Shown here piece after piece: positions 876 to 18,208 of a stretch of DNA of 27,668 nt. This DNA comes from a virus. Below the pieces are notes generated by a model. That model was not told where the DNA came from. It did no database searches and saw only the letters and a list, made by a program, of their open reading frames with translations. Position numbers and translations under genes: made by a program. The stretch lies in the IMG/VR virus record IMGVR_UViG_3300034120_000784, positions 1-27,668 of that record. One strand, 5' to 3'. How positions within the stretch are numbered: the first letter of the stretch is position 1; each line of letters starts with the position of its first letter.

Positions 876-1709
876 ATGCTCATCAGCGTGTCCGCTATCA
901 AACTGGACGGAGATACCCAGGTTCGCAAGAAGCTCGATCAGGACCAGATCGAGGACTTCGCTCAACTCATGCTTACCGGCACAGCGTTTGAAGACATCAC
1001 GGTCTTCAATGACGGCAAAAACCTATGGCTGGCCGATGGGTTCCACCGCGTGCTCGGAGCCAAGATGGCCGGTGCAACCGAGATCGGCGCAACGGTCCAA
1101 GTCGGCTCCCTCGAAGACGCCCGCCTCTACTCCTACGGCGCTAACACCCGTCGCGGCCTATCGCTCTCCACCGAGGACAAGATCAACATCCTCAAAAAGA
1201 TGGAGCAGCACCCGCTCACAAAAGGCTGGTCCAACCGGCAAATCGCTAAACACCTCAACTGCTCCGACGTACAGATCGGGCGGCTGAAGAAACGCATGAT
1301 CGCAGTACCCGATGGCATCCGTCGGCCCAAGGTCGTGAAGAACCCATTCCAGGATGAACAGAAAGCCCCAGAAGCGACGATCGCACCCGAGGTGGTATCA
1401 CCCCCTTCGGAAGACAAACAAGAGCTCCTGGACGCGATTGATAGCCTGGCGAGCGAGAACGAAACCCTGCGAGACAAGATCTCTCTTGGCCAATACGACG
1501 GGTCGGAGTTCGAGAAGATTGATCTTGAGGAACGGATGGATTGGATGCGCAAGAGGATTACGGAGCTGGAGCTGGAGGTGAGGACGCTGACCGAATCACG
1601 CGATTACCTCCAGAACCGGAATGCCGAACTTTTATCGGCCATCAAGAGTCTGAAGAGCAAACTGAAGAAGGCGACCAATGTTAGTGATCGACTTGATCAG
1701 GCTGCTTGA
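876..1709 (+). CDS. ParB-like nuclease-domain protein with HTH and C-terminal coiled coil
   Basis: The N-terminal ~100 residues match the ParB/sulfiredoxin fold pattern, with the signature DGFHR at residues 54-58 followed by an alanine-rich helix (the phosphate-binding ParB box, usually G-x-HR). A helix-turn-helix-like segment follows at about 118-141 (WSNRQIAKHLNCSDVQIGRL). Residues ~190-275 are highly charged heptad-like sequence, a probable dimerising coiled coil. In ParB the fold binds and hydrolyses CTP and spreads on DNA; phage versions also act as nucleases or transcription regulators, so the role here is open. A GGAG ribosome-binding site precedes the ATG inside the end of the upstream gene. 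No ParA-type ATPase lies nearby, which argues against a plasmid-style partition cassette. Confidence 0.85.
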   Translation: MLISVSAIKLDGDTQVRKKLDQDQIEDFAQLMLTGTAFEDITVFNDGKNLWLADGFHRVLGAKMAGATEIGATVQVGSLEDARLYSYGANTRRGLSLSTEDKINILKKMEQHPLTKGWSNRQIAKHLNCSDVQIGRLKKRMIAVPDGIRRPKVVKNPFQDEQKAPEATIAPEVVSPPSEDKQELLDAIDSLASENETLRDKISLGQYDGSEFEKIDLEERMDWMRKRITELELEVRTLTESRDYLQNRNAELLSAIKSLKSKLKKATNVSDRLDQAA

Positions 1710-2153: not shown

Positions 2154-2182
2154 CGGCGGACTGTGTGCCGCCGTTTTTTTTT
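2154..2182 (+). terminator. Rho-independent terminator of the plus-strand operon
   Basis: A perfect 6-bp GC stem (CGGCGG at 2154-2159, CCGCCG at 2168-2173) with an 8-base loop is followed at once by nine T (2174-2182). It sits between the end of the rusA-like gene and the convergent stop of the giant gene (2181-2183). The other strand has no T-run after the hairpin, so it should stop only plus-strand transcripts. Confidence 0.9.
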
Positions 2183-5100
2183 ACAACCCAGCTTCCTTCC
2201 GAAGCAGCTCGATCCCTTCCAGCAACTCCGACTTGTCCCTCTGAAGCAGGTCAATCTCTTTGCGCCGTTCTTTAGCGGTGCCTTCTTCCCGACCCCGTGA
2301 AAGCATCCGGATCTCAGTGTTGATCTTCTTCAGCTTGGCCTCTGTCCGGTTCATTTCACGGGACAGGTCAAGGAGAAGCTCCTTCTCGCGCTCGTACTTC
2401 TCAGCGGTCTTGTACTCGCCGGTCTGTTCGAGGTCTCGCAACGTCGAGGTTGCCTTGCGGACCCGTTCATGGAGGTCGTAGAACAGATCCTCTCGACCCC
2501 GGCCTTCAGTGGGTGCAATGAAGCGTCCAACGAACGGCGCTTGTTTGGCTGTAGGTTCTGGTCGAACGTCGAGATACTGTCCGACAAGGTTCGAGCCGTA
2601 CTGAGCTAACAGGCCAGCGGTACCGAGCGTTCCACGAATGAGATGGTCGTACTCGATCGGGCTGAGGCCACCAGCTTTACCCATGAGCTTGGCGATCTCC
2701 GAGGTCTGGTCGGTGTACTGTCGGAACTTCTCCATGCTCTCCATACCGCGCGGCACCAAAGGACGCTCGGTAAAGAAGCTGCGACCCGTAGAGATCTCAA
2801 CAATCGGCCTAATCACAGTTGGAACGAGTTCTGGACCAAGGAACGCATCCACCGCAGCCCCAGCCACGCCCTGTCTATACCGCGTGGCATCCATCGGCGT
2901 CTTGGTGGCCTGTGTTGACAGCATGTTGTAGGTCAGCTCAGGCAGAGCTTTGAACATGAACGATGCCGAGGTGTTCATGGGGACCAAGATACCGTTCTCT
3001 GTTCCAAGCACCGACTTTGGAATCAAGATGTTTCTTGTTTTGGTTCCATCATCCAGCTTCTCGTACTCGTCATCACCACCGACCAAGAAGCTGTAGAGCA
3101 GGGTCATGGAAGCAAGCTGTGCCGTCGTGCCAGCAAACACGGCCATCGCCCTGCTCTTGTCCCGGCCAGTCATGCCACGCGCAGTCATCGCTCGGAACAG
3201 CGTATCAATCGACTGCATGTAGGCGTTGGCAAAGATCACATACTTAGCGAAGAACATGGCGACGTTGCTTGACCCCATGCGGTTGAAGTTGATGACATTG
3301 GCGGCACGATACAGAGCCAGTGCTTCATCACCATTCGGCATGTCATCTGACTTCGTTTCGGCCAGCGTCCTCTTGTACACCGCAATCCTGGATGCGAAGT
3401 CTGATGAATCACCGATGTGATCCATGATCGCCATGACTGCGGCTAGGGGGGAGCGTTTGATTAACCCTTTCTGAACCTTGATCGCGGCTTCTGGGGTTCT
3501 TGCTGCGGATTGGAATCCACCAATACCGTTGGCTCGAAGGATGTCGGCCACAGGATCTTGGTTTAGAACAGTCTTCGTGAACGAACCAAACACACTCGCC
3601 ATGAACACAGGAGCGTTCCGGATACCGGTGATCATTGCAGCAGACGGAGCGTCCTTGATGACCTGAGCCACTTGGAAGCCCGGATCAATCGTGATGGATC
3701 GACGAATGAACTCTGTCAGCCCGGCAATCGCTGCGTTCATACGTAGGTTGTCTCTCGCCAGGCCATACACCGATTCAGCAATCACGGGATCTTGGATCTC
3801 GACGATCACTCTACGGCCGTCAGAGATGTAGTCGAACCGACCTTTGTTGGGATCGGCCTTGCCGAAGGTCTTGATCTTCCCGGTCTCGGGATCCCGAGTG
3901 GCGTAATCGTTCACGATCCTCAGAGCGGCGTTCTGACGCAAGACACTCTGAGTCAGACGGATGATGTTGTCCGTCATGTTGTCCACGATGTAATCCACAG
4001 GACGCTCGACCTTGCCCTTCTTGAACGATCGCTCCTTGGAGATGTTCGTAGCGGCCCGGGGGTTACCAATGAAATGGATGTCTACGTCGTCATCTTGAAC
4101 CCGCTGCCACGGCACATAGTCCTTGATCGACATCAGTCGCTTATAGCGTTTTTCACTGATCATGCGAACTTGGCGCATCATGCCCAATAACCGATGGTTG
4201 GTCGCCGTCCACGCATTCATCATGCCCCGAAGCTCGGGGTACACAGCATCCTGATCAATGAACGCCTCGATATCCTTTTCAGACATCAACACTTTCTCTT
4301 CGTTGATCCGAACGATTTCATCAAGCTGTGTTTTGGTTTCGTTGTACTCCTGAGCTAGACGGTCCACGACCTTTTGTTGTTGGCCGATTGCACTATCAGA
4401 CGCCTTCGCTTTTTTTTGCTCACTCAAGCGAGCACGAGCGTCATCGAGGGCTTCTTTCTGGACCTCGCTCACCTCGGCTAATTCAGCCATCTCATCACGA
4501 ATGCTCTTCGATCGTTTGGCTTCAAAGTAGCCTTGGGCGAGTTTGGCACCACGCTCATCACCAAGTTTGATCTTGAGCTGATGTTCGAGTTGGTACACAT
4601 CGACCATGCTTCCGTCGGCATCGTGCGCTTCGATGCGCTTGGTGGTGGGGTTGTACCGAAGACCGCCTTTCATGATGAACTGAGCGGCAATCCCTCGGCC
4701 ATGCAGCATGTTGTCCAGAGCCAGGGTTGCAGTAGCCTCGTCATTGCTGGTAACAACCTGACCCCCATACCGCTCCGCATCTCGCTCTTCAAGCCCGGCA
4801 CCGAAGAAGAACGCTTTGTTGCGAACGGTAGCAATGCCACGGTTCAGCGGCCCAAACATCGAGTTGATCGCTTGCCGGGGGTTCTCAATCATCTCTTTGA
4901 ACGTAGACCTGATAGCCGTGGTGCTGGGCATCAGGTCTGACCGAACGGTCTGAGTAGCCCGGCCGGTTACATCAGGACGATTGAACTCCTCTAAAAGCGC
5001 ATCAACACGTTCGCGCTCTTCCTTGGGTGCCTCAACATTGAACAAAGTTAAGGAATCGCTTACCTTTTGAATGTGATCGACCAACATATCCTGAGAGATA

Positions 5101-8100
5101 CGCTGACCGTCACTATCCATGATCTGCTTGAACGTCTTATAGACAGGAGACTTGTTGTCGAATCCAAAGACATCTTTCAAGCCCTCGAACAGCCTACGCA
5201 CTGCCATCTTGAACCGGTTCCAGGGCGTCCCAAGCTGTGCGTCCATCAAGGGTTCAGCATTCACCGCCCAATACTCTGAAGGGCTCAGGTATTGGTACAT
5301 GTCGTAGCTTGGAAGATTCCGAATCGCAGTCTGAAAGTTCCGTAGATTTGGGTTATCCATGAAGTCCAAGACCGATTTGAAGTACCGTTGGTGCTTCTCG
5401 TCTTGGTGCTTTTGCATTGCTTTTTCGAGAGACTGGTACCACTGATCCACCAAAATCTGACGCTGCTCCGGCGTCATCATCTGCTCAAGCGAATGTGCCA
5501 GCTCGTGCCGAATGGAGACCGGGCTATTTACTCCAGAGGTTCCTTTGAACAGCCGAACGATCCGATCCAAAGGATTAAAGTCTGCCGCCGAAGCTCCGCC
5601 TTCCGGTTGTTTCTGAACCCTTAATCTCAGACCGTTGAGCAACCCGGGTGCTTTGCTATACGCAGCCTGAACAACCGCGAGCACATCGGCTGAGATGTTG
5701 CCCTTGTCGTATTCCTCCAAAGCCTTGGCTAGAAACCTTTCAGGCGTGTCTCGTCGAGGCTTGGTGGCCTCAATCTCTTGCTTGAGCTCTTGGGTTGTTT
5801 TAAGAAGCCGAGCCGTTTCACGTTGGACATCAATCCCCGCTTCGCCACGGGCCACCTTCTTGGGTACACCCGCCAGCTTCCGACGAAGCCTTGCGTACTC
5901 TTTGATGTTCTCTTCGCGGATCCGTTGACTACCAAAGATTAGGTCGCCTTCTTGTTCTGCGAGAGATGGTTCGATGTTGGCAAGCGTCGGCCCTTGACCT
6001 TTAGGCTGTGTTGCACGGAACAGCGCGTTGCTCGCATCAACCTCGGCCTTCTTGAGCTTGCCGTACTTACGCTTCCACGAGTTGTACTTCTTCACTCCAT
6101 CGTCGTATCGACGAACGGTCTCAGGATTAGCGCCTTCTCGGCCATTCTTGCCGAAGAACTGACGCTCTGTGCGAGGCTTGGGAGGCTCTGCGCCGAGTGC
6201 GTCTAGTGCTGACTTGGCGTCGTCGTAGGTCTTTTGAAGTCTCTCGATCTCGGGCGCAACAGCGGGGGCTTCGGGTGTTGCCTCACCGCGTTCTGCTTTG
6301 ATGCGTTTTACCTCATCCAACAAGGCACGGTCAGCAGCTTTGTAGTCAGCATCAAAGTAAGGATCGTCTACAACATCAGAAACTTGCTGGACGCTCATGC
6401 CAGCATCAACCGCTTGTTTGATGACCTCCGGCGACATCATGTCGTACTTGTTGGCAATCGCCATCACCGGATTGTCTATCGCATTGTTCGCTTGGAAGAA
6501 GGCATACGCAAAACCCTCTGGCGTCACGCTACGCGCATTTTTGGTAGCCTGGGACTTGCCGCCATACATGCGGTGCATCTTTGAACCCTCAACAGGTTCC
6601 ACGGGAGCAATCGGCAAGTTTGCGTTGAACCTACCCCACAGCAGCGTCTTCTTGGTGTACGGATCCCCGAAGTGATTCGGGTTGAACGACATCCTCCACG
6701 GCGGCAGGCCGGTGAGTTTTTCAATCCGTCCAACCGGGTTTTCAATGGCCCACACGGAAGGTTTGAAATACTCGACGGTGGCCAGGGTTTGCCTCACCAG
6801 CTCGACGGACTCCACGGTGCGGCCATCGGCATCCTTGGCTGCAAAGTGCCGAGCCCCGCTGGATGCAAAGTCAGTGCATGGGCAGGCAGCGAGGATGGCG
6901 TAAATGTCCTGACCTTCAAACGCGCCATACAGGTCGTTGAAAAACTCGGACGAAAACTTGTTGACATCACCCATCTCTGGGTCGGTCTGGATGTCAAAAC
7001 GGTAAACCTGATACCCCGCTTCTTCCCAAGGCTTGCTCCACTCGCCGGTCATATCGAACAGCGAGAGGACGATCTTGTCGGAGTTGCGGCCAGTCTCGCC
7101 CTGCTGCTCGGCGTTGCGCTTCCACTCCTCGATGCGCTGCTTGGCCTGATCAACGGTCAGGTAGCCAACGTCCTTTACGAAGATACGGGCCTTGTCCTCA
7201 ATGCGAACAATATCCGTCTTCTTGGGCGCATCAAACACTCGTGTGACGGTTTCGGCGTCCTGTGACTGTTTGGCTTTTTGAAACGCCTCCGCAACATCTG
7301 CTACTTCTTCATCAGATGCGCCACGGAAGCCCGGATCGTTTTCATCCGGTCTATCTTGCGGAGTTGCTTCCTTGGCTACCTCCTGGGCTTTCTTCTCAGC
7401 TTCGGTGGCACCAGCTTGTTCCGCTTCCTCACGAGTTGTGATCTCTGCTTCTGTTTCGCCGGTCAGCTGAAGCTCCGGTGCGGTGGGTGCAAGTTCTGCG
7501 CGCACTTCCGCGATCAGGTCAGGATTGGTCTGCCAGTTATCCCATGCCGCACGTTGCGCTTTGAGTTCACTGATCCGCTGCTGAACCGCTTCGGGGTTCT
7601 TGAGGTCAACACCTTCCTGTGCAGCGAGCTTGGGATTCCGAGATACGTTATTGAGAATGGAAATACGCTGGCCGAGTTCAGCCTTCTTGCGCTCGGCAAC
7701 CCTGCCCATCTCCACCGCTTGCTTGATGCCCGAGTCATCAAAGCCAAACATATCGGTGGTGGTGGCTTGTTCCAGCGCCATTGCTTGAATGGCACGCACG
7801 GCGTTGAGCGCGTCTTGGTTGGATCCACCGCGCTGACGAACACTGAGGGCTACGGCTTGGAGGCGGGCGTCATTCGGGGCGATTTTGGCAATTTCGGCGG
7901 CTGCTTCATCACTGATGAGATCGGCGCGATGGGCGGCAACAAGCTCCGGCGAGCCGAGATTTGCAATGGCGTAACCCCTTTTGCCTTTAGTGCGGCCCAG
8001 AAGTCCGCGTGCGTCAGCCTCTTCTTGGGTGATGCCGGAGCCTTGGAAGTATTGGACATAATCTTTTACCTTTCCTTGTTCGTCACGGATGTTGAGTTCA

Positions 8101-9923
8101 GCATCCAAGATCGAGGCATCTTGTGCTGTGAATCCATCCGCTTCTCGGTAGATCTGAGCAGGAATGCGATCAATGTTGTTCCGTCGTGCAAGGTCAAGAC
8201 GATGCCGACCCGAGATGACTTCGAGGTCACCGTTCAGTCTTTGCCAGACTTGGATTGCACCAGCATCGCGGTAGTCAAACTTGCCCTCTAGTCGCTCTAC
8301 CACACCCTGTTCATCGGCTTCTTCTTTGAACTGAGGAACGTCATCAGAGAGCTTCAGAGACTTGACCAACGGGTAAACGATCGGAGGCCCAACAGCAATG
8401 TTCGGCTCAGTTTCAGCTTTCTTCTCCGTTTCCTCGGGCGGCTCTTGAGCGACCTGCTTCTGCACCGCTACCGCTTCCGGTGTGGGAGTCGTCGAGATCT
8501 CCGGTGCCTTGCCTTCAGCTACATCAGTGGCTTCTTGGGCTTCAAACTCTTCAATGCTAGGAAGGCCAGGGATGGTCGGGGCTTCAGCCGGCGGGGCTTC
8601 GCGCACGGCAGGACGAACAGCGCTCGGCTCTTCTTCGGGAACTCCGCGAACCGTGGGCTTGAGCACAACCGGCTCTTCTTCTGCCAGCGTCGGTTCAACG
8701 CGCTCAGTAACTGCGGGTTCTGTTTCAAGCGTGGGCTCTACACGTTCAGGTGTAGGAGTTTCTTTGGGCGCAGATTCAGCAATAGTACGCAGTGCGGTAC
8801 TGACTACGGCTTGAGGCCCAGCACCCAATCCCTCGGCAAGCACTTGACCGAGCTTCAACTCCTCGCCCGTGGCGGTCTGTGCTCCGGCCTCACCGACCAT
8901 CTCGGTGCCAACTTCCGAAGCTACGTTAGCTGCACCGCGCGCTATGTTGCGACCAAGCTGTCCAGCCTTAAACGGCAACAGCAAGGCACCTGTAGCCGCA
9001 TCTGCCGCTGAGATGACACGCGCCCTCGTCACGGCACGTTCACCAGCAGCCTTCAAGAAGTCAGGATCTTTCAGCTTTGCCTCAACAGCCTTGACATCTG
9101 ACAGGTCTACACCAGACTCCCGCAACGATTCGGAAATTGATGCCATGTATTCAACGGGAAACGAGCCGGTAGCTAGACCCGTCATTAGTCCTGCCACGCC
9201 GCCTCGCAATAACACGCCGGCGGCACCACCGATTAAGCTGGGCAGTGCGTTCGGAGCTGACTCAACGGAGAGTTGCTGCAAGATTCCCAACGGGTCGCTG
9301 GCAAAGAGCTTTAGCGCACCCTTGAGATCTCCATCGTCGGCCAGCTTGATCATCCGGTCGGCATTCTCATTGCGCTTATAGCCCTGTCGCTCCTGGCCAT
9401 ACGCAACCGTCTTGGCTGTTGTTTGAGCAAGCGCAGACTGAATAGCATCCCGGGTCTGTGCTTTGGCGCTGGCATCCATGTCCGCATAACCAAGCACGTC
9501 TTCGATCGGCGGCACACTCTCACCCCGATCAATACGATCCATTAAGTTCAAAAGCTGGGCGTTGTTTTTGGCAGCATTGGCGTAATAGCCCTCTTGCATA
9601 CCAGTCACGCCGGACTTGAACTGTTCGGCCATGAGCGATGGTTGAAAGCCGCGAGCAGGCGGCCCTTTCACAAACCCACTGATACTGGCCTCCGGAGGAA
9701 GAATCGACTCCTCGGCAACCGGAGCCATGCCTTGACCTGGCGTCTCTACCGGGATGGAGAAGTCTCTCGGAAGCTGCATAGGTCCAGCACCGGCAATTCC
9801 CGGAGGAAACTCTTCTGGGGCGCGCTCAACAACCTGCGGTGCTGCTTGCGATGGCTGTTCAAGCGGAACGAAACGAAATTGAGCCGCCGGCTTTTCAGCC
9901 TCGTCAATCGGAACGAAGCGCAT
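2181..9923 (-). CDS. Giant multi-domain virion protein: ParB-like, C5-methylase-like and zincin regions (2580 aa)
   Basis: Order seen: tandem RFVP motifs at the N-terminus (RFVPIDE, RFVPLEQ); a glycine/leucine hydrophobic stretch at ~228-253; a Pro/Glu/Thr-rich linker at ~385-510; a ParB-like region with SGRHR near 568; a C5-cytosine-methyltransferase-like region at ~930-1180, with LSLFDMTG near 951, CPCTDF near 1013 and ENPVGR near 1059; a long helical part; a zinc-protease motif HELAH at 1473-1477 with a candidate third ligand in SEYWAVNAEP near 1556; further helical regions including a hydrophobic segment at ~2261-2287; and a C-terminal coiled coil (~2485-2580). Such mixtures are known as phage polyvalent proteins, thought to enter the cell with the DNA. 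Its place after the internal-virion-like genes fits ejection. Ribosome-binding site AGAGGA lies 7 bases before the ATG. Enzyme activities are not proven, and no lysozyme or transglycosylase was recognised. Confidence 0.88.
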   Translation of the reverse strand: MRFVPIDEAEKPAAQFRFVPLEQPSQAAPQVVERAPEEFPPGIAGAGPMQLPRDFSIPVETPGQGMAPVAEESILPPEASISGFVKGPPARGFQPSLMAEQFKSGVTGMQEGYYANAAKNNAQLLNLMDRIDRGESVPPIEDVLGYADMDASAKAQTRDAIQSALAQTTAKTVAYGQERQGYKRNENADRMIKLADDGDLKGALKLFASDPLGILQQLSVESAPNALPSLIGGAAGVLLRGGVAGLMTGLATGSFPVEYMASISESLRESGVDLSDVKAVEAKLKDPDFLKAAGERAVTRARVISAADAATGALLLPFKAGQLGRNIARGAANVASEVGTEMVGEAGAQTATGEELKLGQVLAEGLGAGPQAVVSTALRTIAESAPKETPTPERVEPTLETEPAVTERVEPTLAEEEPVVLKPTVRGVPEEEPSAVRPAVREAPPAEAPTIPGLPSIEEFEAQEATDVAEGKAPEISTTPTPEAVAVQKQVAQEPPEETEKKAETEPNIAVGPPIVYPLVKSLKLSDDVPQFKEEADEQGVVERLEGKFDYRDAGAIQVWQRLNGDLEVISGRHRLDLARRNNIDRIPAQIYREADGFTAQDASILDAELNIRDEQGKVKDYVQYFQGSGITQEEADARGLLGRTKGKRGYAIANLGSPELVAAHRADLISDEAAAEIAKIAPNDARLQAVALSVRQRGGSNQDALNAVRAIQAMALEQATTTDMFGFDDSGIKQAVEMGRVAERKKAELGQRISILNNVSRNPKLAAQEGVDLKNPEAVQQRISELKAQRAAWDNWQTNPDLIAEVRAELAPTAPELQLTGETEAEITTREEAEQAGATEAEKKAQEVAKEATPQDRPDENDPGFRGASDEEVADVAEAFQKAKQSQDAETVTRVFDAPKKTDIVRIEDKARIFVKDVGYLTVDQAKQRIEEWKRNAEQQGETGRNSDKIVLSLFDMTGEWSKPWEEAGYQVYRFDIQTDPEMGDVNKFSSEFFNDLYGAFEGQDIYAILAACPCTDFASSGARHFAAKDADGRTVESVELVRQTLATVEYFKPSVWAIENPVGRIEKLTGLPPWRMSFNPNHFGDPYTKKTLLWGRFNANLPIAPVEPVEGSKMHRMYGGKSQATKNARSVTPEGFAYAFFQANNAIDNPVMAIANKYDMMSPEVIKQAVDAGMSVQQVSDVVDDPYFDADYKAADRALLDEVKRIKAERGEATPEAPAVAPEIERLQKTYDDAKSALDALGAEPPKPRTERQFFGKNGREGANPETVRRYDDGVKKYNSWKRKYGKLKKAEVDASNALFRATQPKGQGPTLANIEPSLAEQEGDLIFGSQRIREENIKEYARLRRKLAGVPKKVARGEAGIDVQRETARLLKTTQELKQEIEATKPRRDTPERFLAKALEEYDKGNISADVLAVVQAAYSKAPGLLNGLRLRVQKQPEGGASAADFNPLDRIVRLFKGTSGVNSPVSIRHELAHSLEQMMTPEQRQILVDQWYQSLEKAMQKHQDEKHQRYFKSVLDFMDNPNLRNFQTAIRNLPSYDMYQYLSPSEYWAVNAEPLMDAQLGTPWNRFKMAVRRLFEGLKDVFGFDNKSPVYKTFKQIMDSDGQRISQDMLVDHIQKVSDSLTLFNVEAPKEERERVDALLEEFNRPDVTGRATQTVRSDLMPSTTAIRSTFKEMIENPRQAINSMFGPLNRGIATVRNKAFFFGAGLEERDAERYGGQVVTSNDEATATLALDNMLHGRGIAAQFIMKGGLRYNPTTKRIEAHDADGSMVDVYQLEHQLKIKLGDERGAKLAQGYFEAKRSKSIRDEMAELAEVSEVQKEALDDARARLSEQKKAKASDSAIGQQQKVVDRLAQEYNETKTQLDEIVRINEEKVLMSEKDIEAFIDQDAVYPELRGMMNAWTATNHRLLGMMRQVRMISEKRYKRLMSIKDYVPWQRVQDDDVDIHFIGNPRAATNISKERSFKKGKVERPVDYIVDNMTDNIIRLTQSVLRQNAALRIVNDYATRDPETGKIKTFGKADPNKGRFDYISDGRRVIVEIQDPVIAESVYGLARDNLRMNAAIAGLTEFIRRSITIDPGFQVAQVIKDAPSAAMITGIRNAPVFMASVFGSFTKTVLNQDPVADILRANGIGGFQSAARTPEAAIKVQKGLIKRSPLAAVMAIMDHIGDSSDFASRIAVYKRTLAETKSDDMPNGDEALALYRAANVINFNRMGSSNVAMFFAKYVIFANAYMQSIDTLFRAMTARGMTGRDKSRAMAVFAGTTAQLASMTLLYSFLVGGDDEYEKLDDGTKTRNILIPKSVLGTENGILVPMNTSASFMFKALPELTYNMLSTQATKTPMDATRYRQGVAGAAVDAFLGPELVPTVIRPIVEISTGRSFFTERPLVPRGMESMEKFRQYTDQTSEIAKLMGKAGGLSPIEYDHLIRGTLGTAGLLAQYGSNLVGQYLDVRPEPTAKQAPFVGRFIAPTEGRGREDLFYDLHERVRKATSTLRDLEQTGEYKTAEKYEREKELLLDLSREMNRTEAKLKKINTEIRMLSRGREEGTAKERRKEIDLLQRDKSELLEGIELLRKEAGL

Positions 9924-9926
9924 AAC

Positions 9927-11312
9927 TCAATCCTCTTGAATATGACCACGCACCTTGCCACCTTGGAGCACTTCCCATCCTTTGCCTTCCACAAACTTTC
10001 CGATGGTGGATCCCGGTGGTACGCCGGAAATTTTGGTGAGGTCTGGTGCTTGCCCAGTTGATCGCTGCGGCGAGAAGCGTCCTTGGCTTTCAGCAAACCT
10101 GCGAGTTATGGCTTGTCTGCGTTCGGCGTCCCAGTATTCGCGCTCAGTTCCGCCGCCAGCCACCCATTTGCGAAGGTCCGCTCTGTCGTTCTTAGGCATC
10201 TCACTCTGACGACGCAAGATTTCCGTGTCTACTTGATTGACAATCGTGGCTTCAAGTTGCCTTGCTTGCAAATCAAATTGGGCTTGTTGATTGTTAAATT
10301 GCTTCTGACCCTCAAGACGCAATACGGCTTCGGGTCGTTTATCGCCTTCTTCACGCATCCCGGCCACATAGTCAGCAACGAATTCCGCTCTGTTAGTCTG
10401 ACGCCCACCGCTCAATCCACGGGCAAGCGCTTCGTTCCGCGACTCCTGACGACGCTCGGCAGACTCAGCACGTTGACGCTCGATCTCTTCTCTGGATGCC
10501 AGCTTCTTCTCTTCCAACACTTCCTTGCGAGCCGCAGCGTACTGGGCTTCACCGGATGCAATATCGGCCAAGGCTTGTTCTTGCTTCCGAACATCCAAAG
10601 CGGCACGTTGACCCAGGGCTTCACGCTCTTGTCTACGAATATCACCAAGCTGCCGTTGATAGGATTCGGCCGCACCCGCAGCACCACGCCCGATGTTCTG
10701 GAGAGCATACGGGGATGCACCACCCAGAATGCCCAGACCGGCCTGTAACAGCGCCATGTTGCGAGCCTCATCCCGAGCACCCTGGAACCGTCCGGTATCA
10801 CCAAGTGCCTTTTCTAGCGCGAGCATCGCTTCTGATGGCTTCCTAGCCTCAGCACGACGAGCTGCCGCCTCACGGATGTAGGCATCTATACCTGATACCG
10901 TAGACGGAGAGCTGGCCGGAGGAGTGTAGGTCTCCGTCGGCTCACCGTAGATGACATCGGTCGGATCCGCAAAGCCACCACCCTGGAAGGCTACGATCCC
11001 TCCACCGGCGTAGTTCCGCTCATCAAACATCTGAGTAGGAATAGATGCGACTCCGGTCATTGAAGCTTCAGCCTGGGCGTTCTGTGCCATAGCTTGTTCG
11101 AGAACCGTGGGTTGCATCGGCGCTTGAGAGGCTTGCATCTGCGCTGTTTGTTGCGCCATACGAGCCTTCTCATTGATGATGACAGGCACCACCTCGGCCG
11201 GGATCTGACCCATCTGGGCGAGTTTCATGATCTGCGCCTGTGGGAGCATGGCTAGATCCCGCACAGAACTGTTTTCTGCCTGCTGAACTCGCAGAGCGTC
11301 AAGAATGCTCAT
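9927..11312 (-). CDS. Putative internal virion protein, alanine/glutamine-rich (461 aa)
   Basis: I recognise no enzyme. The N-terminal ~90 residues are helical and Gln/Met-rich. Residues ~99-112 carry a glycine motif, YAGGGIVAFQGGG. From ~130 to ~330 the sequence is long charged helix with an A/R/E/Q bias (a probable coiled coil), and the last ~50 residues form a short globular tail containing GKGWEVLQGG. Composition and position between other helical proteins and the giant polyvalent protein fit the ejection (core) protein set of podoviruses, in the manner of T7 gp14/15/16, although no sequence match to those is visible. It ends 3 bases before the giant gene, whose ribosome-binding site lies within its last codons, so the two are translationally linked. 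Confidence 0.7.
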   Translation of the reverse strand: MSILDALRVQQAENSSVRDLAMLPQAQIMKLAQMGQIPAEVVPVIINEKARMAQQTAQMQASQAPMQPTVLEQAMAQNAQAEASMTGVASIPTQMFDERNYAGGGIVAFQGGGFADPTDVIYGEPTETYTPPASSPSTVSGIDAYIREAAARRAEARKPSEAMLALEKALGDTGRFQGARDEARNMALLQAGLGILGGASPYALQNIGRGAAGAAESYQRQLGDIRRQEREALGQRAALDVRKQEQALADIASGEAQYAAARKEVLEEKKLASREEIERQRAESAERRQESRNEALARGLSGGRQTNRAEFVADYVAGMREEGDKRPEAVLRLEGQKQFNNQQAQFDLQARQLEATIVNQVDTEILRRQSEMPKNDRADLRKWVAGGGTEREYWDAERRQAITRRFAESQGRFSPQRSTGQAPDLTKISGVPPGSTIGKFVEGKGWEVLQGGKVRGHIQED

Positions 11313-11320
11313 GGCGACCC

Positions 11321-12463
11321 CTATCGGTTCATCAAATTGTAGAGGCTTAGACCAGACAGACCAAGCCCTGCTAGTTGCGACATGAGGCTCGGTGCCGGCG
11401 TCGTGGATGATGTCGTTCCCAGCCGATCACCCATCGGGGTTCCACGGAGCAGGCTCGACATTCCAAAGAGCCTCTGCTCTGGGTATCCAACCTCTCTCAT
11501 GACATCCTGATAACCAATGTCGCGGCGCTGTTGCTCCAGTCCACGCTCAAGTTCACTGTAGGCACCCAAGGCTTTGAGACGGTCCATTTCTGCTGCATTC
11601 TGGAGAGCGCCGATCTGACCTGTTGTGGCCGCTAATGATCCCAATCCCTGAGCCGCCGCCATCCGTTGACGCGCCGCCTCTAAGTTTGCCGCTTGGTTGA
11701 GCTGTTGAGCAGTCATGGTCTGAGTAGAACCCAACTGCTGAACGCCCAACTGCGCTTCGAGGTTCCTCTGTTGAGCCAGCATCTGTGCGGCACGATCACG
11801 CTCAAACTGAGATTGTGCCCCGGCAAACGCCTCCTGAAGTCCACGAACTTGAATATCGCCTAGTTGAGTTCCAAGGTTTCGCTCACGTTCCGTGGTAGCT
11901 AGAAGCTGTCCAGAAGCGCCCAAAGACCCTCTGCGGCCCGCTGCAAGGTTCGCCTGTAGCTGTCCACGCTGGGCGTCTTCCATCGCCTTACGCTTGGCTA
12001 CATCCACCACGTTTTGCATGTAGGGCGACATGTACTGCTGGGCTTGTTCAGCACCAAACGTCTGAGGCGCAGCCATTTGAAACTGCGTCAAACCCGGGGC
12101 GGCGACTGTCGAGGGTTGAGTTCCCATCGACCCCATCAACCCGGCCCCAGCCTGTCCAGCAAACGATTCAGCGGTTCCGTAAGCACCCGGAGGGGTAAGC
12201 CCCATGATGCCCGCTCTGAACTGTTGGCCAGCTTCCGTTTCTGCCGGTCCTACAATTCTTTGACCGCCGGCATACGGCGACTGAAGATACGGAGCGTATG
12301 CTTCAGAGAAGGGCCGGGCATAGGTTTTATAGGCCTCACCCAAGAGGCCAGGCTGAAACCCCGGAGTACCAGGCTCACCAAGTCCCGTGTAGTACGGCTG
12401 TAGCTCAGGGGAGATGGCTTGATATTCGCGTACTACGTTTGTACTGGTTGCACCGTTACTCAT
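11321..12463 (-). CDS. Putative internal virion protein, helical, Gln/Ala-rich (380 aa)
   Basis: Its N-terminus (to ~100) is Pro/Gly/Tyr-rich, with repeated tyrosine/proline turns (LQPYYTGLGEPGTPGF, APYLQSPYAGG). The central part (~130-320) is almost all helix with many Gln, Ala, Leu and Arg, including GRRGSLGASGQLL. The C-terminus is short and hydrophobic (LAGLGLSGLSLYNL), possibly membrane-seeking. The pattern resembles phage internal or ejection proteins, which must be flexible enough to pass the tail. An AAGGGG ribosome-binding site lies 6 bases before the ATG. It sits 8 bases upstream of the 461-aa gene in the same operon. Function is assigned by context and composition only. Confidence 0.7.
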   Translation of the reverse strand: MSNGATSTNVVREYQAISPELQPYYTGLGEPGTPGFQPGLLGEAYKTYARPFSEAYAPYLQSPYAGGQRIVGPAETEAGQQFRAGIMGLTPPGAYGTAESFAGQAGAGLMGSMGTQPSTVAAPGLTQFQMAAPQTFGAEQAQQYMSPYMQNVVDVAKRKAMEDAQRGQLQANLAAGRRGSLGASGQLLATTERERNLGTQLGDIQVRGLQEAFAGAQSQFERDRAAQMLAQQRNLEAQLGVQQLGSTQTMTAQQLNQAANLEAARQRMAAAQGLGSLAATTGQIGALQNAAEMDRLKALGAYSELERGLEQQRRDIGYQDVMREVGYPEQRLFGMSSLLRGTPMGDRLGTTSSTTPAPSLMSQLAGLGLSGLSLYNLMNR

Positions 12464-12473
12464 GTTCTACCCC

Positions 12474-14357
12474 TTACGCTGGCATCATTCGAGATGCGTT
12501 GATTTCTTTGCCCTGACGCGGGTTGCCGGTTCTGGCCTTACGCACCCTGTCCATCATGGAATAGAGTTGCTTTGCTCCCGCCTTGCTTGAGCCGTTACCC
12601 AAATGGCTCACCACATCGGCCGGGATCACAAACTCCCCATCGGCGAGTCGAGCAGGCTGACGATTGCTGATCATGGCTGGTACTGAATCGCTCATGCCAT
12701 CACCATGACCGTCAATGTATCGAGGGGGTAATCCGGCAACTCCGCCCTTCTTCAGTCCAAAGACATTACGCTCTGACTCAGGCTTCCCACCCAATTCAGG
12801 GGTGGTCAGAGAGTAAGTGTTGCTGATCTCACCACCGACTGCATAGCGCCATTCACCCGCCATGATCGCCTTGATACGAGCCATATTCTGCTCTTCAGGC
12901 GTCATCTCTGCGTAAGTTTTTTCTTTCTTGTCCGACACAAGATTGAGTAACTGAACAGGAGGCGGCATGAGTGACCCAATACCAGAGTCACCAGCCGACG
13001 CCTCGCCGGGGCTGGCATCCGCCACAGAAGGAGCGGCTTGAGACGCGCCCAACGAAGCCTCACTCATTTCAGCGATTGCTTGTGAGTCGGCCATCATGTC
13101 GGCCATCGATGGTCCAATGCTGCCAAGAGCCGCGATGCCCGGCACCGCACCAGCCTCGGCAATCTGTGCGTCCATATCTGCGGTTGACAGGCCGGTTGTC
13201 CCCAAACCAACAATACCGGGGCCAATACTCGGAGCAGATTCAAAGCTACCTAGATCGCTCGTTGAAGCCATCGAATCGCTCATGCCCGACATGGCCGCAC
13301 CCATCGCAGCATCATCAGCCGCAGCGCCGCTAGTGTCGCCACCAGAGTCCGCAGCATCACCGCCTGCATCACCGTCGCCGGTGCCACCACCGTCGTCAAA
13401 CCGTTTGGCCCGACTGTAGTCAATCGCACCACCGTGAGCGTATCTCCACGGGTTTTGCGTCATTGTGTACTGTGCCCGCGCTTGAGATTCACGAATCTTC
13501 TTCATGAAGTCATCGTGCTGGGCTTGGCTGATCTTGCCAGCCTCAAGAGCCGCTTTGGCCGCACGCTCTTGTTCGTCCAATGCTGCGGTGCCCAAAAAGC
13601 CCAAACCACCCGCCATCAAAGCGCCTCGGCCCACCTGACTACCAAACGCTTGTTGCGCTGCCGCACGAGTTGCCGCATCGCTTGAGAACAGGTTGCTGAT
13701 GCCCTGACTGGCTGATCCCATAGGAACAGCAGACGCCACAGGAGCGCCGCTTACGCCACGAATACCAGCAATGCCAGCCTCTTGTGCGCCAAGTGCAGCC
13801 GCAGCAGCTTTGGTGCCGGGAGCAGCGACTGAGCCGTATCCCGCCGGAGCACTCGCTATCGCGGCTTGAGCTTGTGGGCTCATCTTGGCTAGTTCACCCG
13901 CCGTAAACTCGCCGGCCGCACTACCTGCCTCAGCAGCACCAGCGGCTTGTAGCCCCTGCATGGCTGATCCAATCCCATACGACAACAGTCCTGACATCAG
14001 GCCACGCTTGAGGTCTACGCCCTTCTCTCCCGAGAGAGAGCCCGCTACACCGCCCGCTACCGCTGCACCCATCGGCGTGGTCAAGAACGGCAACGCCGCA
14101 CCAAGCCCAGGAATGAATGCCGCTGCCACAGGTAGAAGGGTAGCAATCCCTCGAAGCGCCTTACGGAGATTGAGGGCTTCCGGTAGACCAGTGACCGGGT
14201 TAATGGTCATCGTGGTGCCTTGAGAGCGAGCAACCTTCTGGAGATCCATAACCTCTTGGGGCGACATGTGGACCAGCATCGTGTCACCGTCACGCCCTTG
14301 GGATGCCAGACCGGCGATCCCGCCACCGGCATACTGAGGAAGGTAGTAATTCATCAT
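12474..14357 (-). CDS. Putative internal/ejection virion protein with conserved-type C-terminal domain (627 aa)
   Basis: The N-terminus carries YAGGGIAGL from residue 9. Residues ~68-140 are strongly hydrophobic and glycine/alanine-rich (TLLPVAAAFIPGLGAALPFL), so membrane insertion is plausible. A low-complexity Gly/Asp/Ala/Ser stretch lies at ~320-450. The C-terminal ~85 residues form a compact domain of a type I recall from aquatic phages, with DGMSDSVPA, ADGEFVIPADVV, LGNGSSKAGAKQLYSMMDRV at ~546-608. YAHGG (~304) and YAVGG (~503) repeat the N-terminal motif. A tape-measure-like or core-protein role is possible; the hydrophobic part and the neighbours favour a protein ejected into the host envelope. 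Ribosome-binding site AAGGA lies ahead of the first of two adjacent ATGs. Confidence 0.75.
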   Translation of the reverse strand: MMNYYLPQYAGGGIAGLASQGRDGDTMLVHMSPQEVMDLQKVARSQGTTMTINPVTGLPEALNLRKALRGIATLLPVAAAFIPGLGAALPFLTTPMGAAVAGGVAGSLSGEKGVDLKRGLMSGLLSYGIGSAMQGLQAAGAAEAGSAAGEFTAGELAKMSPQAQAAIASAPAGYGSVAAPGTKAAAAALGAQEAGIAGIRGVSGAPVASAVPMGSASQGISNLFSSDAATRAAAQQAFGSQVGRGALMAGGLGFLGTAALDEQERAAKAALEAGKISQAQHDDFMKKIRESQARAQYTMTQNPWRYAHGGAIDYSRAKRFDDGGGTGDGDAGGDAADSGGDTSGAAADDAAMGAAMSGMSDSMASTSDLGSFESAPSIGPGIVGLGTTGLSTADMDAQIAEAGAVPGIAALGSIGPSMADMMADSQAIAEMSEASLGASQAAPSVADASPGEASAGDSGIGSLMPPPVQLLNLVSDKKEKTYAEMTPEEQNMARIKAIMAGEWRYAVGGEISNTYSLTTPELGGKPESERNVFGLKKGGVAGLPPRYIDGHGDGMSDSVPAMISNRQPARLADGEFVIPADVVSHLGNGSSKAGAKQLYSMMDRVRKARTGNPRQGKEINASRMMPA

Positions 14358-14383: not shown

Positions 14384-15109
14384 TTATGTAATTGTGACGG
14401 TTACTGAACCCACAAGTCCAGCAGACACCGTTCCTTTGGGCTCCGCAAATAGGCTTGGGTCGGTAATGCCTGACACCAGATCTACGGTCAAAATTACCGA
14501 TGGTATGTTTGGACCAACACCGGGAGAGGTGTCGTGCTCTAACCGAATGTTGGTGTCATCACCCGCCCACATGAGCTGAAAAAAGTCTCCAGCATTCATA
14601 GTGAGCATAAAGTTCCAAGCCGCCACTTCTGCGGCATTTGACCCATCTACATCAATGCGTGTGTTGCTTTCGGAAACATCAACACCATTGACTCTTGCCC
14701 AAAAAAACGCTTTGCCCGAACTGGCGTTGGTTTTAATGATCTGGGTTGAAAACTCAAAGTTATACACGCCGTCATAGGGCACAACAATTTTTGAGCCGTC
14801 TTGAATGCCCACGCCAATCTCTGATTCAACATTATTGACCGTGACGGGATACGGGGTGTTAATAGATGCTAACGTCTGATCTACAGTGCTGAAATAGCTT
14901 CCATGTGGGATCAGAATTTGTTGTCCGTATCCAATAAACTCACCACCATAGAATCTCTCTGCTCGATACGATTGCGCTTGTTGCGGGGCAAACGAATCCA
15001 ACAGATTGAAATACAACGTCAGCGCACGGACCAGTTGTTGTTGATACTGCTGGTCGTACTTGGGAGGAGGAGCCGGTAATGCAGGGGCTCTGAAGTTCTC
15101 CAGTGCCAC
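14384..15109 (-). CDS. Phage structural protein with C1q/TNF-like jelly-roll domain (241 aa)
   Basis: After a helical N-terminus rich in Pro and Gln (~1-55), residues ~70-225 read as an all-beta jelly-roll. The segment around 108 (VPYDGVYNFEFSTQI), followed by FWARVNGVDV and later AGDFFQLMWAGDD, matches the core of C1q/TNF-like domains found on phage decoration and fibre proteins, which usually trimerise and bind surfaces. The last residues, LVGSVTVTIT, match the repeat unit of the 738-aa protein at 20258-22474. The start is GTG, supported by GGAGG six bases upstream and direct contact with the preceding stop codon. Probable tail or surface protein; its receptor is unknown. Confidence 0.75.
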   Translation of the reverse strand: MALENFRAPALPAPPPKYDQQYQQQLVRALTLYFNLLDSFAPQQAQSYRAERFYGGEFIGYGQQILIPHGSYFSTVDQTLASINTPYPVTVNNVESEIGVGIQDGSKIVVPYDGVYNFEFSTQIIKTNASSGKAFFWARVNGVDVSESNTRIDVDGSNAAEVAAWNFMLTMNAGDFFQLMWAGDDTNIRLEHDTSPGVGPNIPSVILTVDLVSGITDPSLFAEPKGTVSAGLVGSVTVTIT

Positions 15110-17249: not shown

Positions 17250-17575
17250 GACAGCCACGGCAATTTCGGGGTGAGATAAGGCGGATTGATCTGCTGATCG
17301 ATCTGGGACTGCATAGAGGCTTCGTATGCGTCTTTATCCACACCATTCGCCCACACCCAGCCCAGCACTTGATTCTCGGTCAGATTGGCATAGGGCGTAA
17401 ACGGATCACCGGGAGCGGAGAATCCGCAAGTGCCGTAAGCGGTGGAGGTATAGGTCTTGCCATCTTGGACTTGGGTTCCCGTTACCCGCCAGCCTACAGT
17501 GACCACGCACTTGGGCGGGTTTGCTGATTCGGGGGTCGTTTTAACCCATTCTATCCGCCAATCACAAATACTCAT
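17246..17575 (-). CDS. Small phage protein of unknown function (109 aa)
   Basis: The protein opens MSICDWRIEWVKTTPES and has a beta-rich first half (CVVTVGWRVTGTQV, TYTSTAYGTCGFS) and a helical second half ending in LPWLS. I recall similar small proteins near tail genes in aquatic phages but cannot name a function. The start at 17575 is preferred to an in-frame TTG at 17593: a GGAG sequence lies 7 bases before the ATG, and the ATG overlaps the stop of the HNH gene as ATGA. Its stop in turn overlaps the start of the zinc-ribbon gene. The tryptophans and cysteines suggest a compact fold. Confidence 0.75.
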   Translation of the reverse strand: MSICDWRIEWVKTTPESANPPKCVVTVGWRVTGTQVQDGKTYTSTAYGTCGFSAPGDPFTPYANLTENQVLGWVWANGVDKDAYEASMQSQIDQQINPPYLTPKLPWLS

Positions 17576-18207
17576 TTTGAACTCCAGTGCCAAGGCAATG
17601 CTTTGCCTGTTACCATGATTCCGTCTAAAACGGGCCTATAAACACTATCCGTAATCTTGTTGTGCTTTGCACAGTTTGCAGAAAAATCCATGATTTGCAG
17701 ATTCCAAGGAACATGCAGACCACATACCTTTTTATTCTTTAGAGGCACAATGTGGTCCACCGCCATTCGGATTCCAGATCGTTTTTGTATTGTTTCTGCG
17801 TGATAATAGATCTGTTCCATTTGATTCAGGTGTTCTTTTGTAATCCAATTCGGCAAGCGTCCCATGCGTTTTGCAGCTGCCAAGCGCTCATTAGCAACGT
17901 GCTTGTACATATTGTCAGCACGGTATGCCTTGAATATTTCTTTCACTTTTTTCGGGTTTGTTTTGGCATACATTCTTGAGTATTCATTAACATATTGCCT
18001 GTTATTGTCTCTCCATTGTGCAGCGTAACTCAGCCAACGGTCTTTATCTTTTGCATATGCCTTCTTAAATGTTTCTTTTTTACAGGTTACACAAAGATTT
18101 GTAGATACATAACGCTCACAGTGATGGCCGTTTATACAAGGTTTTTCTGGCATATACCGATCCAATCCAGAAGCCTTGGCCGCATCGCGCAGCGGGTTTG
18201 GCTTCAT
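17572..18207 (-). CDS. Free-standing HNH endonuclease, probably mobile (211 aa)
   Basis: It has an N-terminal zinc-binding region (C24, H28, C30, C39, C42 in PCINGHHC and LCVTC), a long basic helical middle, and a C-terminal HNH nuclease core with VDHIVPLKNKK (D151, H152), then CGLHVPWNLQIM and NCAKHNK. This arrangement is typical of phage HNH homing-type nucleases, which cut at a ββα-metal site and promote their own spread. The start is the ATG at 18207, with AAAGGAG six bases upstream inside the last codons of the fibre gene; an ATG at 18258 would overlap that gene by 50 bases. The stretch is visibly richer in A/T than its neighbours, a sign of separate origin, yet it is joined to both neighbours without a gap. 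No intron features were seen. Confidence 0.9.
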   Translation of the reverse strand: MKPNPLRDAAKASGLDRYMPEKPCINGHHCERYVSTNLCVTCKKETFKKAYAKDKDRWLSYAAQWRDNNRQYVNEYSRMYAKTNPKKVKEIFKAYRADNMYKHVANERLAAAKRMGRLPNWITKEHLNQMEQIYYHAETIQKRSGIRMAVDHIVPLKNKKVCGLHVPWNLQIMDFSANCAKHNKITDSVYRPVLDGIMVTGKALPWHWSSK

Positions 18208-18208
18208 C

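Follow-up and report, generated by a model that had tools for sequence, protein, structure and literature searches.

A giant polyvalent protein gene with ParB-like, cytosine-C5 methylase-like and peptidase-like regions at the end of a viral ejection-gene block

The giant gene and its locus

The window analysed in this study is the complete 27,668-base virus record IMGVR_UViG_3300034120_000784 of IMG/VR, which is classed linear and is thus possibly a fragment of a virus genome. Its minus strand carries a giant gene for a polyvalent protein, in which ParB-like, cytosine-C5 DNA methylase-like and metallopeptidase-like regions are followed by a conserved C-terminal module, called here the carrier (Table 1). 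An initial annotation made from the sequence alone had given the coordinates and length of this intact frame correctly and had left its strand unstated; the plus strand of the same interval is packed with stops. Recounting of the motifs placed HELAH exactly where it had been put, and found all the others present at shifted positions, SGRHR at 571-575 instead of about 568, CPCTDF at 1014-1019 instead of about 1013 and ENP at 1061-1063 instead of about 1059. The composition of the chain predicts 0.006 chance occurrences of GRHR, 0.011 of HExxH, 0.11 of PC and 0.44 of ENP, thus ENP on its own is weak evidence, and conservation among relatives, rather than composition, is the real test of these motifs.

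The giant gene lies at the end of a block of virion genes, and the order of genes of 636, 241, 627, 380 and 461 amino acids (aa) followed by the giant recurs in relatives. Likewise, four genes separate the stabilization protein from the giant in Vibrio phage 1.183.O. The 636-aa stabilization protein is 36% identical over its full length to that of DSL-LC04, in which the equivalent position at the end of the block is taken by a gene annotated as 'DNA transfer protein'; the two genes are equivalent in position only, since the carrier is not homologous to that protein, and a common place in the order is no proof of a common function. The stabilization-protein match, the conserved order and the DSL-LC04 slot together bear out the earlier placement of the gene after internal-virion-like genes.

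Table 1. Features of the giant gene, its protein and the adjoining virion genes (nucleotide positions in the window)
Feature	Residues	Nucleotides	Strand	Basis or remarks
Polyvalent protein gene		2181..9923	-	2580 aa, ATG start, about 286 kDa, no internal stop
Duplicated short motif RFVPI...RFVPL, candidate virion-address tag	1-25	9849..9923	-	Shuffle test
Most hydrophobic stretch, possible membrane contact	230-248	9180..9236	-	Hydropathy maximum 1.46 over 19 residues; weak
ParB-like region	511-840	7404..8393	-	Fold match over ~215 columns; SGRHR 571-575 = 8199-8213
Cytosine-C5 DNA methylase-like region	890-1205	6309..7256	-	Motif IV CPC 1014-1016; motif VI ENP 1061-1063
Linker, 94% identical in L013 beside different cargo	1226-1307	6003..6248	-	Sequence comparison
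Metallopeptidase-like region	1360-1634	5022..5846	-	HELAH 1473-1477 = 5493-5507; candidate third ligand Glu1550 = 5274-5276
C-terminal carrier module, mostly helical, conserved	1690-2580	2184..4856	-	hhalign, Foldseek; contains LPD38
Pfam LPD38 (PF18857)	2284-2465	2529..3074	-	E 4.1e-26, 92.7 bits (cut-off 27)
461-aa gene directly upstream in operon		9927..11312	-	Position conserved; likely internal virion protein, judged from position
380-aa gene		11321..12463	-	Position conserved; likely internal virion protein, judged from position
627-aa gene		12474..14357	-	Relative of annotated tail tape measure proteins in DSL-LC04 and Caulobacter phages
241-aa gene		14384..15109	-	Located between the genes for the stabilization protein and the internal virion proteins
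Stabilization-type (P22 gp10-like) tail protein, 636 aa		15110..17020	-	PHROG 3287, E 4e-64

Relatives of the giant protein

Relatives were gathered by segment-wise scans of viral contigs, a scan with the whole protein having given one relative only. These scans yielded about 200 loci and 151 nonredundant related open reading frames (ORFs), and homologues spanning 1900-5150 aa were found in many viral contigs. A ParB-like region and a C5-methylase occur in the same order in ten other nonredundant viral contigs (L002, L007, L012, L017, L020, L025, L029, L033, L060 and L100), thus the combination singled out by the initial annotation is not unique to the window. Eight of these ten also match the peptidase profile and thus have the same series of ParB, methylase, peptidase and carrier, although in L029, L033 and L060 the peptidase match is divergent and split; the methylase is missing in 36 of the 46 proteins that have both ParB and the C-terminal module. 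A search of the whole protein against NCBIfam gave no match, and PADLOC returned MTase_II and one weak model, nothing else.

Relatives of the ParB region in bacterial genomes are mostly from Gammaproteobacteria, among them two cultured strains, Oceanisphaera litoralis DSM 15406 and Agitococcus lubricus DSM 5822, and the methylase profile found no match in these loci. ORFs joining ParB to an LPD38 carrier were seen in O. litoralis DSM 15406 (L236, 3597 residues) and Paraglaciecola (L233, 3295 residues), and possibly lie in prophages.

The ParB-like region

A structure model of residues 505-1210 had a mean predicted local distance difference test score (pLDDT) of 66, higher in the ParB part, and a Foldseek search with it retrieved cytidine triphosphate (CTP)-binding ParB, Noc and KorB structures with probability 1.00 and a best E of 1.5e-4, in agreement with the ParB-like assignment of the initial annotation. 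Pfam ParB_N was weakly detected in 22 of 46 relatives, with E 1.9e-4 at best, and the only hit of a sequence-profile search of solved structures was a weak one to Noc, at its GERR box. The GRHR sequence, conserved in 71 of 71 ParB relatives, provides a phosphate-binding box of the GxRR type and stands in register with the GERRWR box of Noc. When LNIRD is set by eye against the ENxxR box, Asn611 is kept in 71/71 and Arg613 in 70/71, with Leu610 (64/71) at the position of the catalytic Glu, which makes it possible that the ParB part binds a nucleotide without hydrolysing it.

The DdrB type of ParB (PF18763) was tried and rejected: it gave no match in the window protein, with P1 DdrB itself scoring 134.8 bits, it was absent from the 25 best-represented families of the 46 relatives, and no homology was detected between the ParB part and the ParB of P1 DdrB. 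As a separate observation, a 277-aa protein encoded at 876-1709 (+) appears by eye to be a further ParB-like protein containing a helix-turn-helix, although in Pfam it matched HTH_23 weakly and ParB not at all; its gene adjoins RusA at 1784-2134 and is convergent with the giant gene.

The cytosine-C5 methylase region

The methylase region matches PHROG 757 'DNA methyltransferase' with E 2.6e-47 and PADLOC MTase_II with 4.8e-5, and Pfam DNA_methylase (PF00145) was detected in 16 of 17 methylase relatives (best 1.5e-6), the window's own score lying under the Pfam cut-off. Cys1016 and ENP are kept in all 17 relatives, in which Phe956, Gly960 (motif I), Cys1016, Glu1061 and Asn1062 are invariant, ENP standing for ENV. 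These family matches and invariant residues support the cytosine-methylase-like region proposed initially. The ratio of nonsynonymous to synonymous differences (pN/pS) in the methylase was 0.11 against L007 and 0.11-0.17 overall, below every other domain in the same pairs, which argues for a working protein. Methylase relatives were found in 1,419 phage records; those inspected were mostly short separate genes, several of them annotated as C-5 cytosine methylases. In the phage collection, a match covering at least 80% of the methylase segment was seen in Pseudomonas phage 8P only.

The peptidase-like region

HExxH is conserved in 66 of 67 relatives, and Glu1550, downstream of it within a PSE-[YF]-W-A-x-N motif, is kept in about 91%. 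Pfam MPTase-PolyVal matched weakly in 2 of 43 relatives, a sequence-profile search of solved structures with this region returned nothing significant, and the sequence match to P1 DdrB was confined to its HELGH site (probability 4.8). The zinc protease of the initial annotation thus stood as to its motif residues, while its zincin fold was found by no profile or fold search; on the conserved residues, we regard residues 1360-1634 as a probable zinc peptidase. L013, a relative without the window-type peptidase region, has by eye another HExxH stretch (MIHEIAHTG) at the corresponding place, and relatives of this kind may carry alternative HExxH stretches there.

The C-terminal carrier

In a model of residues 1340-2490 (pLDDT 76), the chain from about residue 1690 is mostly helical, and LPD38 covers only about 180 residues of this module of about 800. 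By hhalign the carrier is homologous to gp69 of Burkholderia phage JC1, with probability 99.8 and E 3.6e-30 over about 700 columns, and to p69 of phiARM81mr (E 6.7e-33), and by Foldseek it recurs in many viral polyvalent proteins with E down to 6e-32; the annotations of some of these giants name RelA/SpoT, transglycosylase or type I methylase parts. As a homologue of the carrier, the N4 virion RNA polymerase was rejected (hhalign probability 0.4).

LPD38 is listed by Iyer et al. 2017 (PMC5512222), who defined the class, as confined to polyvalent proteins of the phage type, and its presence confirms the polyvalent-protein reading put forward initially. As for the earlier statement that more than half of the chain lacked an assignment, the C-terminal 800 or so residues can now be taken out of that fraction. 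In virions purified on CsCl, JC1 gp69 has been detected by 51 unique peptides (PMC9144972). Synteny and the homology of the carrier to JC1 gp69 together suggest that the window protein would likewise be delivered in the virion.

Exchange of cassettes between carrier and N-terminus

The nearest relative found is L013 (G001, 60 kb), whose stabilization protein is 88% identical to that of the window. The two giants have in common residues 1-98, the ParB part, the 82-aa linker and the carrier (75% identical), while in L013 a GHKL ATPase and the other HExxH stretch replace the methylase and the window-type peptidase; the methylase and peptidase profiles had no match elsewhere in the 60-kb record. 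Synonymous divergence (dS) between window and L013 was 0.31 in the linker versus 1.2 in the carrier. Against L007, the methylase is 87% identical in nucleotides with a dS of 0.63, silent sites are saturated in the ParB and peptidase parts, and dS in the carrier is 1.6. Recombination within the giant gene is the simplest account of this exchange.

Other cargo was seen in related giants. A GHKL/HSP90-type ATPase (HATPase_c_3) is present in L013:3074-11479, L007:5747-17740 and L012:8285-17653, and an ART-PolyVal ADP-ribosyltransferase lies directly before the peptidase region in L022:7661-17869 and in the L007 giant; the L022 giant also has DUF6884 and a weak GNAT match.

N-terminal motifs

The RFVPI/RFVPL repeat of the window protein exceeded all 100 shuffles (z 3.4) and is among the weaker cases; in many members N-terminal motifs occur two or three times, such as NPFDQFD, FDPDAYL, NPFAKY, FTTFTPLD, NPQTGEVLFLVNNQW and, in 8P, DQKPWESF. 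A self-repeat in the first 60 residues unmatched by 100 shuffles was found in 40 of 89 members, compared with 1/89 and 0/89 for internal windows, the 89 being related and hence not 89 independent events, with motif sequences that nonetheless differ widely. The same test on the N-termini of other ORFs was positive in 7 of 120. Among the ORFs of these loci, the checked motifs occur in the first 60 residues of essentially the giants only. The motifs were not convincingly shared with other ORFs of the loci, which lends no support to a signal used by the ejection proteins in general.

It has been reported that the first 30 residues of P1 DarB suffice to direct a reporter to the capsid (PMC9024508), and by analogy the N-terminal motif may act as a virion-address signal. 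By eye the N-termini of the 89 giants are of three kinds, with duplicated motifs, with a small 'APDGxxYxVxAPEGATxxQ' or with a helical-looking 'FRxxNPQYxDMxDDQL', which may be alternative address signals.

Other features of the window

An Endonuclease VII/HNH-like gene (17572-18258, -; PHROG 1035) lies between the tail fibre and stabilization protein genes. At 20511-22318 there are 24 copies of a 92-nucleotide repeat, spaced mostly by 66 nucleotides (22 residues), within the gene of a 738-aa virion-block protein (20258-22474, -). The segment 45-629 (+) is 91.6% identical to its nearest relative at the nucleotide level, compared with 74% in the adjoining aligned stretch, coding genes included, and its plus strand folds more stably than any of 100 shuffles (z -4.0). 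The two-sequence consensus shows 3 two-sided and 7 one-sided pair changes with 0 broken pairs, albeit in a structure derived from the very sequences compared. No Rfam match reached the gathering score, and exact-pattern scans found no relative beyond this one. The segment is a candidate structured RNA limited to a small clade.

Discussion

The presence of a ParB fold, a C5-methylase and LPD38 in one chain, encoded among late virion genes, leads us to propose that the window protein is a packed polyvalent protein of the phage type, released with the genome and made of a carrier with exchangeable ParB, methylase and peptidase cargo directed against restriction. We give this reading a probability of roughly 0.6; it draws on the family, the domain order, the conserved catalytic residues, the ParB fold, the carrier homology, the ejection synteny and the exchange of cassettes, all observed in this analysis. 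According to this proposal the giant would be made late, together with tail and ejection proteins, would be packed into the particle and would enter the cell along with the genome. The constant helical carrier of about 800 residues, LPD38 included, would fit the chain to the particle and the ejection machinery, and the short N-terminal motif, often duplicated, would act as its address. Between the two would lie the exchangeable cargo, a ParB-like part binding DNA and nucleotide, a C5-methylase and, beside the carrier, the probable zinc peptidase. After entry, cleavage by the peptidase would detach the carrier from the cargo, the latter being kept on the incoming DNA by its ParB part, and the methylase would modify cytosines ahead of host restriction. 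The early takeover or defence evasion suggested by the initial annotation is a plausible role.

Several results weigh against this proposal. In the segment-wise fold and profile checks called for initially the ParB fold was found, but the methylase and peptidase folds had no significant match: the model of residues 505-1210 reached only E 0.33 (DNMT3A) for a methylase, and the model of residues 1340-2490 matched no significant fold among solved structures, the peptidase region included. A sequence-profile search of solved structures with the methylase also returned nothing significant, and since the fold search gave no significant match, it is family matches and motifs that carry the methylase assignment. 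When the region was compared as a single sequence with a canonical C5 methylase, motifs IV and VI fell into register but the match was not significant. In an alignment judged by eye no classical target-recognition domain was evident, with only about 40 residues between the motif VIII-like block and the C-terminal conserved block. In addition, JC1 gp69, the relative found in virions, carries different cargo, namely a transglycosylase, LPD3 and a DarB-like adenine methylase/helicase, instead of ParB and a C5-methylase, and the DSL-LC04 'DNA transfer protein' was rejected as a carrier homologue (probability 0.2).

That last result counts at the same time against the strongest alternative, namely that the giant is mainly a structural ejection protein of the P22 gp16 or T7 gp16 type that builds a conduit, its enzyme-like parts being secondary or serving in assembly only. 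The place of the gene within the ejection block, the constancy of carrier and N-terminus beside varying enzymes, and the hydrophobic stretch at residues 230-248 are all consistent with such a protein, but invariant catalytic residues, strong purifying selection on the methylase and the many unrelated enzymes borne by the same carrier make it unlikely as the main function. If it were nevertheless right, such giants would be conduit proteins.

It is still less probable that the enzymes hit the host or rival elements, with ParB as a nuclease or nucleotidase and the methylase triggering methyl-dependent restriction or altering host genes. It has been proposed that polyvalent ParB domains act as DNases or sense nucleoside triphosphates (PMC5512222), and the ADP-ribosyltransferase cargo of relatives suggests that host-directed effectors can ride on the carrier; the window ParB, however, is not the DdrB type discussed in that source, its fold matches CTP-binding, DNA-binding ParB/Noc, and the methylase better fits protection in cis, as with DarB. 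That the giant is a late enzyme, left unpackaged in the cell that makes it and methylating the DNA of the progeny there, is very improbable, since it is fused to a carrier with a virion-proven homologue and keeps a conserved place in the ejection block, even if its methylase relatives in phages, in the records inspected, are mostly short separate genes.

Returning to the packed, cargo-bearing protein, a wider and more tentative extension, to which we give less than even odds, is that these giants form a modular platform, with an N-terminal address, a C-terminal carrier and enzyme cassettes (C5-methylase, GHKL ATPase, ADP-ribosyltransferase, peptidases) recombined to match host defences. On the same tentative footing, the C5 version would be a virion-borne antirestriction methylase that acts as the DNA enters and differs from DarB with its adenine methylase-helicase pair. 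The polyvalent class, LPD38 and cargo of the ParB and peptidase types are already known. The usual polyvalent methylases in PMC5512222 are adenine-N6 methylase-helicase pairs, and a C5-methylase as polyvalent cargo is not mentioned in the main-text passages covered by this comparison; this cargo may be the novel point here. Polyvalent proteins have so far been described mostly by listing their domains, and the window and L013 amount to a natural experiment in which N-terminus, ParB, linker and carrier are shared and the enzymes are not. The split into constant and variable parts yields testable claims, packing being assigned to the carrier and N-terminal motif and function in the cell to the cassette. 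If true, a virion-delivered cytosine methylase would have been named, and phage counter-defence could be read from cassette content.

Comparison with known systems

The window protein resembles the LPD38 phage-type polyvalent proteins (PMC5512222) in having several unlike domains per chain, LPD38, a zincin-like motif and a place among late virion genes; it differs in its cytosine-C5 methylase, in a ParB that is not of the DdrB type and in a carrier extending far beyond Pfam LPD38. P1 DarB and DdrB are likewise giants of antirestriction borne by the virion, and DdrB joins a ParB-type domain to an HExxH region; however, the ParB of DdrB is PF18763, and LPD38 was not found in DdrB. The N4 virion RNA polymerase is also a giant multidomain protein coinjected with DNA, whose C-terminal part is required for packaging (PMC5512222), but it has no detectable homology with the carrier. 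With the P22 gp16-type DNA transfer protein the window giant has in common its position as last gene of the ejection block, homology to this type being lacking, as judged from the DSL-LC04 protein.

Protein 8P_023 of Pseudomonas phage 8P (5145 aa, annotated 'structural protein') is alike in its C5-methylase (50% identity) and in an N-terminal motif, DQKPWESF, that occurs twice, while it is double the length, and none of the profiles built in this analysis for ParB, peptidase and carrier matched it. The giants of Vibrio phage 1.183.O and Shewanella phage X14 have the ParB region and the LPD38 carrier, and in 1.183.O the giant gene comes, as in the window, directly behind the genes for stabilization and internal virion proteins; they differ in another methyltransferase in mid-chain (MTS in 1.183.O), the C5-methylase being a separate gene in both. 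The DarB-like giants of the Bcep22 type, represented by JC1 gp69, share with the window protein the homologous C-terminal part of about 800 residues and a place as the last of the large genes in the virion block. Given the presence of JC1 gp69 in virions, the homology suggests that the window protein would be in particles as well.

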